Of a stretch of 64,000 bases of DNA, positions 16,192 through 30,071 are shown piece after piece; position 1 is the stretch's first letter, and the number at the start of each line of letters is the position of its first letter. Position numbers and translations under genes: made by a program. The notes under the pieces are model-generated. The model saw only the letters and a list, made by a program, of their open reading frames with translations. It did not search any database and was not told where the DNA came from. This stretch comes from Thalassospira sp. MCCC 1A01148 (GTDB lineage Bacteria > Pseudomonadota > Alphaproteobacteria > Rhodospirillales > Thalassospiraceae). The DNA lies in contig NZ_LPVZ01000020.1 of assembly GCF_001613795.1 (NCBI RefSeq), forward strand, positions 186,001-250,000. The letters are read 5' to 3'.

Positions 16192-18153
16192 TTAAAGTGC
16201 CCGCATACGTTCCAGGAAACCGTCAATCTGGGATCGAAGATCACCACTTTGCGTCCCGAGATTATTGGCCGCATCATTGACATCACCTGCCGCGGCATTC
16301 GTTTCTCCGACCGCTGCCGAAACGCCTTGCATTGCCGACGATATTGCCTCGGTCCCCGATGCCGCCTGTTCGACATTTTGCGAAATTTCGCTTGTGGCAA
16401 CTGTTTGCTCCTCGACCGCAGCAGCAACGGCTGAGGCGCGTTCACTGATATCGGAGATCATTTTGACAATTTCGTCAATTGCGTCGACGGCAAGTCCAGT
16501 GGCCTCCTGAATATCGTTGATCTGACTGGTAATATCTTCAGTTGCCTTACCTGTCTGCTTGGCGAGGTTTTTGACCTCGCTTGCCACAACAGCAAAGCCT
16601 TTGCCTGCATCACCAGCACGGGCAGCCTCAATCGTTGCATTCAGTGCGAGAAGGTTCGTCTGTTCGGCAATATCACTGATCAGACTGATGACCTCGCCAA
16701 TCTTGATTGCGGAGTCATTTAGCCCCTGAATATTGTCGTTCGTACTGCGCGCACGTTCAGTTGCTGAAACAGCCATGTTTGAGGTTTCCGTGACTTGCCC
16801 AGAAATCTCGTTAATGGATGCGGACAGCTCCGTCGCCGCCGTAGCAACAAGCTGAACATTTGATGATGCTTCCTCGGCTCCCGATGATACCGCCATTGAT
16901 TGATCGGTTGCGGTTTTGGCACTGTCTCGCAAGACGTTTGAGACCTGATGAAGTTGCTCGACCGCAGACCCAACATCTGACATCACGGCAACAACGGCCT
17001 CGTCGAATTCTTTGATGTACTGCTCCTGGATTTCCATCCGCTTGCGACGTCGTTCATCCTGAGCACGCTGGGCCTCTTCGAGTTTGGCTCGCTCTATCCC
17101 GTTCTCGCGGAATACTCGCACGGCACGCCCCATCTCGCCGATTTCGTCCGAACGGTTCACTTCATTGATTTCGACATCAAAATCGTTGTCAGCTAAACGG
17201 GTCATTTTGCCTGTCAGGCCCGAAATTGCCCTGACGATTGCACCTGACAACAAAAGCGAGAGCCCCAGCAGCGCAACAATACCCGCCACATACATGAAAA
17301 TAGTTACTGTAAGGCTGGTCGCAGCGATTTGTTCGGCACGCTGCTTTTCCGCTGTTGCGATAGAGCCAATCGCCAAACTGATGTCATCAAGAATTGGTTC
17401 GGCTTCCGCGTAGAATGCAGAAAGAAAGCCCAGTTCTTCCTCGCGCTGAAGGATTTTGGCTGAAAGCGCTTTGAAGTCAGTTACATAAGACTTCATGAGG
17501 TCAGAGATTCTTGCCTTGTCGTCTGCCGGAATGGCTGATGCAGCCAAAGCTGGCCCGAACTCTGCAAGACGATCATCTATGCGCCCAACATATTTTGGAT
17601 CAAGCCGGGCGAGAAAATCTTTCTCGTGGCGGCGCATCATCAACATGATCACTGTCAGGTTATCTGCGTTGTATTTCTTAAGCGCCTCTTCAACATTGTG
17701 CACTGAACCACGAAGGCGCCCCAAAAGGCCCTCTTCTTCGTTCAAGCCGATATGCCGCTGCAGCGCGACAACCGTGGCAAACTTCGCTGTGTAATTCGCA
17801 AAAGCTGTTTCAATTTGGGAGATCTGCGCATCAAACGCCCCAAGACTTGGTTCGCGTGACAATTGTTCAAGCCCCGCGATAACACTGGCAACGACATCCG
17901 CATGCTGAGCAACGTACTTTTCATCTTTGCGCAGAAGAAAGTCTTTCTCTCGCCGGCGGGCGTTCAGGAAGTCCTTTGAAATAGCATCCGCGACCAACCT
18001 GTTATCAAGGGTCATATCGGCAATTGATTGCGCAGATCGTCTTTGATGCTCGGCTGCAAATTGAACCCCACCGACCACAACAAATATTACAAGTGACACG
18101 GCACCGATCAGGGATATTTGATAAAGAAGCCTCATTCTGGAAAGAAAATTCAT
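16192..18153 (-). CDS. Methyl-accepting chemotaxis protein with HBM sensor domain
   Basis: A 653-residue transmembrane chemoreceptor. TM1 lies at about residues 8-30 and TM2 at about 284-310, with a periplasmic helical domain of about 250 residues between them. That domain has two copies of the helical-bimodular motif: [15 protein letters not shown] and [20 protein letters not shown] domain follows, then the signalling hairpin tip with [19 protein letters not shown]. In Pseudomonas McpS this sensor type binds TCA intermediates, so an organic-acid ligand is plausible. No CheR-tethering pentapeptide is visible at the end. A close paralogue lies immediately upstream. Confidence 0.92.
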
Positions 18154-18466: not shown

Positions 18467-20464
18467 TCAGGAGATCGAGCGCATTCTGGCAAGGAAGCTG
18501 TCGATGCGTTCGCTAAGCCCATCGCTTTGACGGCCAAGGTTGTCAGCCGACCCGCGCACGTCGTTGGCCGCCTCGCTGGTTTCGGCCACCGCAGTTGAAA
18601 CACCTTGCATAGCATTGGAAATTTCGCTGGTGGCAGATGCAGCCTGTTCAACATTCTGGGAGATTTCGCTTGTAGCGACAGTCTGTTGCTCTACAGCAGC
18701 CGCCACGGCCGAAGCCCGCTCGCTTATATCGGCGATCATTTGCACGATGCCGTCAATCGCATCGACTGCTGATTGGGTTGCCTGCTGAATATCGTTAATC
18801 TGGCTTGAGATATCCTCGGTCGCCTTGGCAGTCTGATTGGCAAGGTTCTTGACTTCGCTGGCGACGACCGCAAATCCTTTGCCGGCATCACCGGCCCGCG
18901 CCGCCTCAATCGTTGCATTCAGTGCCAGAAGGTTCGTCTGTTCGGCAATATCACTGATCAGACTGATGACCTCGCCGATCCGCACAGCAGCAGCGTTCAA
19001 ACCCTGAATGTCGTCGTTGGTTGTTTGGGCACGTTCACTGGCGCTGTTGGCCATATTGGAGGTATCGCTGATCTGTCCGGCGATTTCATGAATGGATGCG
19101 GAAAGCTCGGTCGCGGCTGTCGCCACAAGTTGCACATTTGATGATGCTTCCTCGCTGCCTGCGGAAACAGTCGTGGACTGTTCATTGGCCGTGGCCGCAC
19201 TATTGCGCAAAGCTTCCGACACGGAGTGCAATTGTTGTACCGCGGTGCCGACCTCGCTCATCATCGCGACAACGTCATCATCAAACTCGCGGATGTGTTT
19301 TTCCTGCTGTTCAATGCGCTGGCGTTGTTTTTCATCAAGCTCGCGTTGCTGGGCTTCAAGTTTCTGACGCTCCAACCCGTTTTCACGGAACACCATCACA
19401 GAGCGGGCCATTTCACCGATTTCGTCCTTGCGGTCGGCCTCATCAAGCTTGACGTCAAAGTCGTTTTTGGCCAGTCGGGCCATCTTGGCTGTCAGGCCGG
19501 TGATCGCACGCACAATGGCACGCGCCAAAACAAACGACAGCAAAACCATGATGATCGCACCAGCGATAAAGATCGCAAAGGTAACCTGAACCCCTGTATG
19601 TGCGATTTCCTCAGCCCGCGATTGCATGTTTTCTGCAACCGTCTGAACTTCAACGCGCAGAGTATCGAGAATGGGTTCGACCGCCGCGTAATAGGTACTC
19701 AGACGCTTCAGGGATTCCTCGCGCTCAAGGGCTGCCGCGGCAAGCGTTTTGAAATCCTCTACATAGGATTTCATCAGGTTGCCAAGTTGTTCTTTCTTGT
19801 CATCCTTGATGCTGCCTGCGCGCTCAAGCGCCGCAGAAAACTGTTTGGCATTCTCTTCGACGCTTTGGACATAGGCCGGATCAAGACGCGCCAGAAAGTC
19901 CTTTTCGTCGCGACGCATTTCTAGCAACGCAATCGACAAATCCTTGGTGTTGGTCAACCCCAACATCGCTTCCAGCTTGGCAACTTCGCCAAGAGCACCT
20001 TCGACTTCTGAGGCCGCATTGCGCATCTCCCCCAGCAATCCGGAACTCTTATCCAGTCCGACCTTGCGCTGCAGTTCGACGACAGTCGCGAATTCGACAA
20101 CATAATTATCGACCGCTGACTGCACCTGATTGACCTGTTCAAGAAGTGCGCCGAGTTCTTCACGCCCCGAAAGTTTTTCCAACCCGGCGCGAATTGCAGC
20201 CGCGGCCTCACCATGGGCGACGACATACTCTTCACGTTTTCGAAGAACGAAATCTTTCTCATGACGGCGGGCATCAAGAAAGGCCCGCGCAACGTCCCCG
20301 ACAACTTGGGAATCCTCACTCGCATCCTTGGCGATCACCTGGGCAGACTGACGCTGCTGATCGGCAATGAATTGCGTCGCCCCAACGATGGCAAAAATCA
20401 CCAACGCTACAAGACTGAGCAGCGATATCTGGTAAAGCAGCTTCATGCGCGACAAGAAAGACAT
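18467..20464 (-). CDS. Methyl-accepting chemotaxis protein with HBM sensor domain (paralogue)
   Basis: A 665-residue chemoreceptor with the same layout as its downstream neighbour: TM1 (about 8-30), a helical bimodular sensor with [15 protein letters not shown] and [16 protein letters not shown]2 (about 290-316), HAMP, and the MA signalling domain with the same conserved tip. The signalling half is nearly identical between the two copies, while the sensor half has diverged, so they probably sense different ligands. The ATG follows a GTGGGGTGGA site. The pair most likely arose by tandem duplication. Confidence 0.92.
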
Positions 20465-28230: not shown

Positions 28231-29031
28231 CTAAAACGGCAACACTGTCTGAAAGGAAAACGGGTCGATATCCTGATCGTTTCCACGCTTTTCATCATAA
28301 GTCGTGCGCGCTTTTGCCATAAACTCTTCCTTGGTGACCATCTTGTCCCCGTCCGCGTCGTAATCGGGAAACAATAAATCCAGTCGGCGGCTTTCGGTAC
28401 GCAGTCTTTGGCGATTGGCTTCTGCAGAACCGGGCAGTTTTTCAACCGCGGCAAATTCGCGTGCGACAAGCACATTGTCGCCGTTAATGTCACGGCGCCT
28501 AAACATCCAGCTTGCATAGGCAGCGGCTTCGTCTGGACTGATACGGCCATCCTGATCAATATCAATTGGATGATACTGTTCGCGATACACCCTGACCTGT
28601 TCAGGGATGCCGGACGGTGCAACACCCGTTCCACCATTTTGCTGGGCAAGGGCCTTTGCAATTGCTTCGCTCAGTCCGGGGATATTGGCAGCACCGTCAG
28701 CTGACATACCGGGCACACCAGGCATACCTGTGCTGGAACCGCCCCCATCAAGACCATTCAGCCCTGAAAGTCCGCCCAAACCGAATTGCGACATCAGTTC
28801 CGGATTGTTTTGCAGTTGTTTCATAATCAAGGGCAGCAATTCGCGCATCTGCGGCGACGAGACTTCTGGCGAATTTGATCCGCCACCGGCCGGATCAAGG
28901 GGCAAGCCTTGCGCAAACGCCGTCCCGCCAGAAACAGCACCAAGCCCGGGCAGGAAAAACGCACCGGAGAATGCGCAACCCATTAATAGAATGGCAGCTT
29001 TTATCCGCAACAATCGCTTCCTTCGTTTCAC
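28231..29031 (-). CDS. Exported EF-hand calcium-binding protein
   Basis: A 266-residue exported protein. The signal peptide spans residues about 1-40 and ends in A-F-A-Q. A Gly/Pro/Ser-rich spacer (about 84-140) looks flexible. Three EF-hand loops follow: D157-E168 (D-I-D-Q-D-G-R-I-S-P-D-E), a second from D181 (D-I-N-G-D-N), and a third at about 225-236 (D-A-D-G-D-K). The first is canonical; the second and third lack the central Gly at loop position 6 and may bind more weakly. The whole is probably a periplasmic calcium sensor or buffer. Downstream on the same strand is corA, 94 bases away. Confidence 0.8.
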   Translation of the reverse strand: MKRRKRLLRIKAAILLMGCAFSGAFFLPGLGAVSGGTAFAQGLPLDPAGGGSNSPEVSSPQMRELLPLIMKQLQNNPELMSQFGLGGLSGLNGLDGGGSSTGMPGVPGMSADGAANIPGLSEAIAKALAQQNGGTGVAPSGIPEQVRVYREQYHPIDIDQDGRISPDEAAAYASWMFRRRDINGDNVLVAREFAAVEKLPGSAEANRQRLRTESRRLDLLFPDYDADGDKMVTKEEFMAKARTTYDEKRGNDQDIDPFSFQTVLPF

Positions 29032-29119: not shown

Positions 29120-29262
29120 AGATCATTTTGACATTTTGCAGGAGTTTGCCCGCGCATCAAACCCGATTGGACATCAAATCGCAAACTGTCTTCGGCACTC
29201 CATCAAAACCCGATGCCAAATCTGATCCATAAAAACCCGAATTCCGGTTTTTCAATGGTCTT

Positions 29263-29302
29263 CCCATGGGACCCCATGGAACGAGTTTGGGATTTTATGG
29301 GC
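29263..29302. promoter_or_regulatory. Upstream MraZ-box cluster
   Basis: Two CCCAT boxes (29263, 29273) are followed by two TGGGN boxes (29288, 29298), each pair at 10-base spacing. MraZ of E. coli binds TGGGN repeats spaced by 5 bases. The cluster lies upstream of the predicted -35 element. Confidence 0.65.
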
Positions 29303-29335
29303 ACATAATGGAACCATGCTGATTTTCCGCGATTT

Positions 29336-29365
29336 TTGACCGAATTCAGCCTTTCTGCATATACC
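29336..29365 (+). promoter_or_regulatory. Predicted mraZ (dcw) promoter
   Basis: TTGACC at 29336 and TATACC at 29360 are separated by 18 bases. The expected start near 29372 lies between two MraZ-box clusters and about 195 bases before mraZ. Confidence 0.55.
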
Positions 29366-29404
29366 GCAGAAACCCTCGGGAAGCGCCAAAACATCACGTA
29401 TTGG

Positions 29405-29449
29405 CCCATCAAATCCCATTGACCCCCATCATTTCCCATGGTACCCCAT
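29405..29449. promoter_or_regulatory. Downstream MraZ-box array (five boxes)
   Basis: Five CCCAT boxes start at 29405, 29415, 29425, 29435 and 29445, an exact 10-base period. On the opposite strand each reads ATGGG, matching the TGGGN repeat type recognised by MraZ. The array lies in the leader of mraZ, just past the predicted promoter, where binding would repress the operon. Confidence 0.75.
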
Positions 29450-29567
29450 AAAGAGGCACAAATTCCGTGCCATGCGGGGCATATCCATTTCAGACATCAC
29501 ACAGTCGCAAGACAGCCCATCAGGGCCCGAGGTTTGAGATCGGATTTTTGATCAGGGGAATGGCGAC

Positions 29568-30071
29568 GTGCTGTTCACAGGGACGCACATTCACAAGCTG
29601 GACCGGAAGGGGCGCGTATCCGTCCCCAAGCGGTTCCGTGCGGCCCTTGACCAAGAAGAATTCGCCGGCATCTACCTGTATCAATCCCACAAGGAAAGCG
29701 CGCTTGAAGGCTGTAGCCACAGCCATATGGAGCGCATTGCCGCATCGCTTGATGAACTCGACATGTTCTCTGACGAGGCCGACGATCTGGCAGACACCAT
29801 CCTTGGCTCCTCGCATATGCTTCCTTACGACGGCGAAGGCCGCATCATTCTGCCTGCAGAACTGATCGAATTCGCACGTATCGAAGATCAGGTCGCCTTT
29901 GTCGGCCGTGGTCGCACCTTCCGCCTGTGGAACCCTGACATCTTCAAACCCCTGCAAGAAGCCAGCCGGACCCGCACGCTCAACCGTGGTGCGACATTAA
30001 AGCTCAAACCGATGTCCGAACTCCCCAAAGGTGCACGTCCCGGCACCGCGGATGAGGAGGACGCATCATGA
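29568..30071 (+). CDS. mraZ: Transcriptional regulator MraZ
   Basis: First gene of the dcw cluster, 167 residues, with two SpoVT-AbrB-like repeats: H-K-L-D-R-K-G-R-V-S-V-P near the start and L-P-Y-D-G-E-G-R-I-I-L-P near residue 86. Each carries the D-x-x-G-R motif. MraZ forms a ring that binds TGGGN repeats upstream of its own gene and represses the operon. The GTG start has AGGGGA about nine bases upstream. Nine candidate boxes lie in the region before it. The gene overlaps rsmH by four bases (ATGA). Confidence 0.95.
   Translation: MLFTGTHIHKLDRKGRVSVPKRFRAALDQEEFAGIYLYQSHKESALEGCSHSHMERIAASLDELDMFSDEADDLADTILGSSHMLPYDGEGRIILPAELIEFARIEDQVAFVGRGRTFRLWNPDIFKPLQEASRTRTLNRGATLKLKPMSELPKGARPGTADEEDAS

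Follow-up and report, generated by a model that had tools for sequence, protein, structure and literature searches.

Gene Organization at the mraZ Locus

The window considered here, namely the whole stretch of 64,000 nucleotides of Thalassospira sp. MCCC 1A01148 that was analyzed, contains a dcw cluster headed by mraZ, which is followed by rsmH and, on the basis of ORFs and Pfam matches, by a transpeptidase (ftsI-like) gene (table 1); a 143-aa ORF located between the latter two genes has no Pfam match. The MraZ protein, which has relatives of solved structure (1n0e, 9qlr, 9sx6, and 9qlg), and the MraZ box array are of already known kinds. The intergenic region of mraZ spans 536 bases and is bordered by the gene of an EF-hand-like protein, the start of which resembles a signal peptide when judged by eye. 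Within the upstream sequence compared, each of the 30 Thalassospira loci has this EF-hand gene ahead of mraZ, and none of the 153 other leaders does.

A search of the mraZ leader against Rfam produced a single match, at chance level, and a terminator scan retrieved 3 terminator-like sites vs. 1.0 expected. Where the mraZ mRNA is predicted to begin, there is a short stem (GGCAC...GTGCC, 29455-29471) that is kept in Thalassospira, with changes that are mostly one-sided and one that is two-sided; read on the minus strand, the same stem is also a terminator-like site.

Table 1. Genes and sequence elements around mraZ (positions counted from the first base of the window)
Feature	Position	Strand	Remarks
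EF-hand-like protein gene	28231..29031	-	divergent from mraZ; EF-hand matches under the curated cut-off
U1, CCCAT pair	29226..29238	+	degenerate here (TCCATAAAAACCC), exact in some relatives
U2, ATGGG at 29266 and ATGG at 29276	29266..29279	+	weaker boxes, in U3 orientation
U3, TGGG boxes at 29288 and 29298	29288..29301	+	orientation opposite to the D array
Spacer U3-D	29302..29404		near-constant length, poorly conserved sequence
D array, five CCCAT boxes	29405..29449	+	boxes start at 29405, 29415, 29425, 29435 and 29445; TGGG on the minus strand
-35 of the predicted dcw promoter, TTGACC	29419..29424	+	within the D array
-10 of the predicted dcw promoter, TACCCC	29442..29447	+	within the D array; TG at 29439-29440 (extended -10)
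mraZ	29568..30071	+	167 aa, GTG start; Pfam MraZ, 60.8 bits vs. cut-off of 23
rsmH (mraW)	from 30068		follows mraZ; MraW methylase, 334.5 bits

The comparison included 183 mraZ leaders, a non-random sample formed by 30 Thalassospira loci (27 plus L050, L051, and L052, the last two each duplicating another locus) and 153 other leaders. The latter comprised the best 30 Pfam matches of a class search, 52 more leaders from the same search that were picked mostly one per family, 13 from a search of relatives and 58 from an order search. Boxes were called in these leaders as CCCAT with four of five letters matched, at exact 10-base steps. For the upstream set, we aligned 29 Thalassospira loci (including the two duplicates), the masked locus L006 being excluded.

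A Standard Array that Encloses the Predicted Promoter

The five boxes of the D array follow each other at intervals of exactly 10 bases. Such a chain is not due to chance, since no CCCA chain longer than three boxes emerged in 2000 dinucleotide-preserving shuffles of the intergenic region, vs. five observed. A genome scan that covered the three-box CCCA pattern found no exact array elsewhere, all 3 exact matches lying at the D array, whereas matches with one mismatch numbered 18 vs. 16 for a control pattern. Chains of at least five boxes are present in 30/30 Thalassospira loci and in genomes G544 and G545. Five boxes are nonetheless ordinary, because 127 of the 153 other leaders have at least four at exact 10-base steps; at least three occur in 140 and fewer in the remaining 13, while 900 shuffled leaders yielded three boxes in 4 cases and more than three in none. 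Arrays of four or five boxes represent the norm in the leaders compared. With at least three boxes at 10-base steps, a location ahead of mraZ at the head of the dcw cluster and an overlap with the predicted dcw promoter, the -35/-10 signature of which lies within it, the D array would be an ordinary member of its kind, namely the standard and primary MraZ operator of α-proteobacteria. Just before the D array, where the boxes begin, five leaders (L029, L030, L166, L170, and L179) carry a TTTnTTAACCCA-like stretch that is common to several other families of the order and resembles a CtrA half site.

The promoter had previously been placed, with no coordinates given, between the two box sets, with the five boxes downstream of it. 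Comparative evidence now indicates that the dcw promoter is probably located inside the D array instead. When leaders are anchored on TTGAC, a downstream TG-n-TA is nearly fixed and the other letters between boxes are variable; the TTGAC itself follows CCCA in box phase in 126 of the 170 array-bearing leaders, being out of phase or absent in 44. TTGAC-N15-TGnTA, corresponding to 17 bases between the hexamers, is found in 28/28 Thalassospira leaders and 93/153 others, a hexamer spacing of 18 is seen in 23/153, and none of the remaining spacings between 10 and 27 occurs more than once. The combined signature, TTGAC-N15/16-TGnTA, which we take to be a sigma70 -35 element with an extended -10, is thus present in 116/153 other leaders, compared with 1 of 765 mononucleotide-shuffled leaders; its absence from the remaining 37/153 counts against the embedded promoter. 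The -10 sequence of our strain is a poor match to TATAAT, and a stricter scan for sigma70-like promoters between 28900 and 29700 retrieved none. Transcription of the dcw cluster is predicted to start near 29454, about 7 nt past the -10.

Leader lengths estimated in this way and counted to codon 2 have a median of 96 in the other leaders and lie between 101 and 118 in Thalassospira. They agree only roughly with the values given in the sections of PMC5089854 consulted here, according to which leaders outside Rhodobacteraceae typically have 70 nt or less, including that of Caulobacter crescentus, and that of Sinorhizobium has 170.

An Inverted Upstream Set Conserved in Thalassospira

The nine boxes counted in the preliminary description are real as words. 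Upstream, CCCAT is present at 29263 and 29273 and TGGG at 29267, 29288, and 29298, with steps of exactly 10 bases within the upstream pairs as within the five-box set. The upstream words do not form one lattice, however, the distance from TGGG 29267 to 29288 being 21. Moreover, the upstream CCCAT pair (29263..29277, plus strand) was rejected as a pair of boxes, since its CCC is kept in only 14/29 and 15/29 of the aligned genomes; we judge these words to be a probable by-product of CCCATGGG/CCCATGG palindromes.

The alignment across relatives, a check proposed in the preliminary description, has upheld the presence of MraZ-type boxes in two orientations and the conservation of their 10-base step in both the D array and U3. 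Box letters and step are conserved in U3, where TGGG is kept at each box in 28/29 Thalassospira genomes and column identity between clades is 0.9-1.0, vs. a mean of 0.41 in non-box columns. U2 is more variable, with TGGG in 22/29 and ATGG in 24/29 genomes and between-clade identity ranging from 0.2 to 1.0. In U1, where one genome is masked, identity between clades is 1.0 at five of seven positions and 0.58 and 0.80 at the remaining two; the sequence is CCCATCAAACCCCAT in three clade-C rows. Taken together, box columns have a between-clade identity of 0.81 vs. 0.41 for non-box columns (Mann-Whitney p = 1e-8, for box columns picked after the alignment had been inspected).

Taken alone, the upstream pair is weak against chance, for the longest TGGG chain reached two boxes in 27/2000 shuffles and the longest CCCA chain did so in 204/2000. 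When the comparison is limited to leaders whose array could be read, TGGG pairs with a step of 9-11 or 20-22 bases, no more than 200 bp upstream, are present in 29/29 Thalassospira loci (two duplicates included, L006 excluded) vs. 4/140 others, while the control word GGGT under the same rules occurs in 4/29 and 2/140, respectively. Pairs at exactly 10 bases within 300 bp are found in 7/140 others, vs. 2 and 0 for the controls. The idea that the upstream set mirrors the promoter array was likewise dropped, as inspection of the leaders by eye showed no TTGAC at the corresponding position and a scan of the minus strand did not retrieve a consistent site there.

Spacing between the Two Sets

The distance from the last TGGG of U3 to the first CCCAT of the D array is 107 bp in 26/29 genomes, the others having 106, 116, and 118 bp; it is counted from the last box of the TGGG set, ignoring the single TGGG words that lie closer to D in four Thalassospira loci (L005, L016, L017, and L024). 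Identity of the U3-D spacer in seven between-clade pairs is only 37-45%. Gapless comparison gives 40-44% vs. about 25% in shifted controls, so the spacers appear to be still homologous despite their divergence, and few indels may suffice to explain their common length. Nine syntenic intergenic intervals, measuring 79-283 bp in the window, served as controls, and not one of them has the same length in any of the seven genomes from clades B, C, and D. These controls are coarse, however, for three of the nine have insertions exceeding 1000 bp within clades B-D, and some values for clade D are artefacts of gene assignment. Three intervals shorter than 60 bp, one overlapping pair and one interval between tandem paralogues had been excluded. 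Between the start of the EF-hand gene and U1, the distance varies from 55 to 251. Judging from these sequences, the spacing between U3 and D seems to be under constraint, which is what a cooperative or looping arrangement would demand.

Elsewhere in the window, two adjoining large ORFs on the minus strand (16192-18153 and 18467-20464) have matches at identical positions in several relatives, which suggests tandem paralogues, one copy being apparently absent from some genomes.

The Same Layout in a Second Lineage

A strict pattern consisting of two TGGG, 85-115 bases and three CCCA was found in 3/385 genomes of the class, two of which are from Thalassospira and the other is G191, and in 4/299 genomes of a phylum sample, all from Thalassospira. 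In the order of G191, the TGGG set ends 107 bp before the first CCCAT in G191 and G270 and 129 bp before it in G609, whereas G087 has single TGGG words only, G610 has no TGGG set and the sequence of G605 ends too near the array for upstream reading. The order of G206 has the inverted layout in 7/18 genomes, at 106, 106, 118, 127, 128, 128, and 129 bp as derived from match lengths (control pattern, 0), and the remaining 11/18 are without the set by exact pattern. Single TGGG words nearer the array occur at 85 bp in G866 and G867, at 79 bp in G206 and at 31 and 13 bp in G270. A small-genome α-proteobacterial clade therefore shows the same inverted layout as Thalassospira. The upstream ORF is divergent in G270 and co-directional in G191 and G609, so that no divergent gene accounts for the set in the latter two.

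Over both lineages, the distances between U and D fall at 106-107, 116-118, and 127-129 bp, a series in which the phase is confounded by the 10-bp period of the arrays and by shared descent. Indeed, twelve spacing values give R 0.89 at 10.5 bp with a Rayleigh p of about 7e-5, uncorrected for descent, and this helical clustering is partly built in, being exaggerated by the array period as well as by common ancestry. Owing to the array step, distances that differ by approximately 10 bp are a likely outcome wherever an end box has been gained or lost.

All ten leaders of the small-genome clade that were compared here (L239, L240, L244, and L252-L258) additionally contain a DnaA-box-like TTATCCACA between their MraZ arrays; its distance to the first CCCAT is 59 bp, or 60 bp in one of them. 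G087 has TTATCCACA at 59 bp though it has no TGGG set, and G610 is without TTATCCACA.

A Model of Cooperative Repression and Its Alternatives

The boxes, the promoter signature, their conservation and the near-constant spacing are observed; MraZ binding, the loop and the effect on expression we infer from sequence. In the interpretation that we favor, with a probability of roughly 0.6, the remote U operator and the operator at the promoter would cooperate via MraZ, probably through a DNA loop. Since -35, spacer and -10 all lie under the D array, a MraZ ring bound there would directly block RNA polymerase. U3 and U2, together with the CCCAT pair of U1, would constitute a second MraZ operator of opposite orientation. 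Rings on U and D might then interact, or a single ring contact both, with the intervening ~107 bp held as a short loop or compact complex, and the outcome would be stronger repression and a steeper response to the level of MraZ.

The chief rival to this model is a separate role of the upstream set as MraZ operator of the divergent EF-hand gene, without action on the mraZ promoter and without a loop. The distribution of the EF-hand gene (30/30 Thalassospira loci, 0/153 others) matches that of the set, the TGGG boxes read on the minus strand are a CCCAT set ahead of this gene, and all six clade-B genomes have a candidate minus-strand promoter (TTGGCA-N17-TTTGAT, 9/12) between the set and the EF-hand gene, on the EF-hand gene side of U1 and at a distance of 238-256 bp from D. 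A divergent ORF upstream is likewise present in G270 of the second lineage. Yet 17/29 genomes show no such promoter at threshold, and its positions are scattered outside clade B. The set also lies at a variable distance from the EF-hand gene (55-251 from its start to U1b) and at a nearly fixed one from the mraZ array, and the layout is present in G191 and G609 with a co-directional upstream ORF. On balance we regard an operator devoted to the EF-hand gene as unlikely, even if the two roles could coexist.

It is also conceivable that a factor other than MraZ recognizes the upstream set, or that the set is remnant sequence, only the D array working, as a plain MraZ operator. Indeed, shuffled sequence yields a lone TGGG pair not so rarely (27/2000), and 136/140 other leaders lack an upstream pair within 200 bp, which counts against cooperation between U and D as well, as does the lack of the upstream set in many second-lineage relatives. 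This possibility seems rather improbable to us nevertheless, given that 28/29 genomes, belonging to different clades, retain the U3 boxes at a near-constant distance despite spacer identity of 37-45%, and that the inverted layout recurs in the second lineage. We give very little credence to a promoter lying between the box sets with MraZ sites on its flanks: its best candidate, TTGACC-N18-TATACC at 29336-29365, scores 9/12 in this genome, but other clade-A rows have TTGGCC or different letters at the -35, between-clade identity at 29336-29364 is 0.36, below the background of 0.41, and many leaders share the TTGAC-N15/16-TGnTA signature within the array.

Cooperation between the two operators could be extended, tentatively and with somewhat more doubt than confidence, to the view that MraZ rings are loop-forming repressors in at least two α-proteobacterial lineages, with a reversed remote array kept in fixed helical register with the array over the promoter. 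The DnaA box of the second lineage would then lie within the loop, and the division cluster could come under joint control by replication initiation and MraZ. We know of no settled reason why MraZ forms large rings despite having short linear arrays as sites; a layout in which one ring may bridge two arrays makes the role of such rings experimentally approachable. The promoter signature within the MraZ array of most leaders compared would moreover offer a simple occlusion mechanism for α-proteobacteria, as well as a consensus for predicting dcw start sites.

Comparison with Known Systems

The MraZ operator of E. coli, reportedly defined at mraZ1p by Eraso and colleagues in 2014, resembles the Thalassospira array in having direct TGGG repeats at 10-base steps before mraZ, the first gene of dcw (NC_000913). 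A contrast with the 5-base spacing of E. coli, drawn in the preliminary description, disappears on inspection, for TGGGN plus a 5-base spacer is the same 10-base period, and E. coli has three TGGG in 10-base steps. The real differences are that E. coli has three boxes with TGGG on the coding strand, whereas the D array has five in reverse orientation, and that the 181 bases examined in E. coli contain no inverted set, unlike Thalassospira. Its boxes span the start site, 38 nt ahead of mraZ, according to the sections of PMC5089854 consulted, while the D array lies over the -35/-10.

In PmraBc of Burkholderia cenocepacia, as presented in the consulted part of PMC7761207, four seven-base repeats with 3-base spacers share the 10-base period and lie within a fragment bound by MraZ in EMSA; these repeats come after the -10 and extend over the start site, and the same part of the article mentions no remote set. 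In the α-proteobacterial leaders compared, the array is thus further upstream and reversed with respect to E. coli and B. cenocepacia, as far as the portions of these articles indicate. The Mollicute MraZ site, (AAAGTGKN3)3 in the portion of PMC5282649 considered, has tandem repeats and a 10-base period in common with the arrays described here, but consists of three repeats with box letters unlike those of Thalassospira.

The portions of the open-access literature on MraZ covered by our searches yielded no description of either a remote inverted MraZ operator or a promoter-in-array layout. Open-access searches for MraZ in Thalassospira, and for MraZ with dcw and TGGG, returned no paper, and among the matches listed for MraZ with DNA looping and for MraZ with DnaA box nothing on MraZ operators was apparent in titles and the beginnings of abstracts.

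Repressors that form loops with remote operators are represented by GalR and LacI. If looping does occur at the mraZ promoter, Thalassospira would be comparable to these systems in having two operators that are separated by about ten turns of the helix and keep their phase, although GalR and LacI have a different protein fold and bind palindromic single sites, vs. the box arrays of MraZ, for which the loop is deduced from the arrangement of sites.
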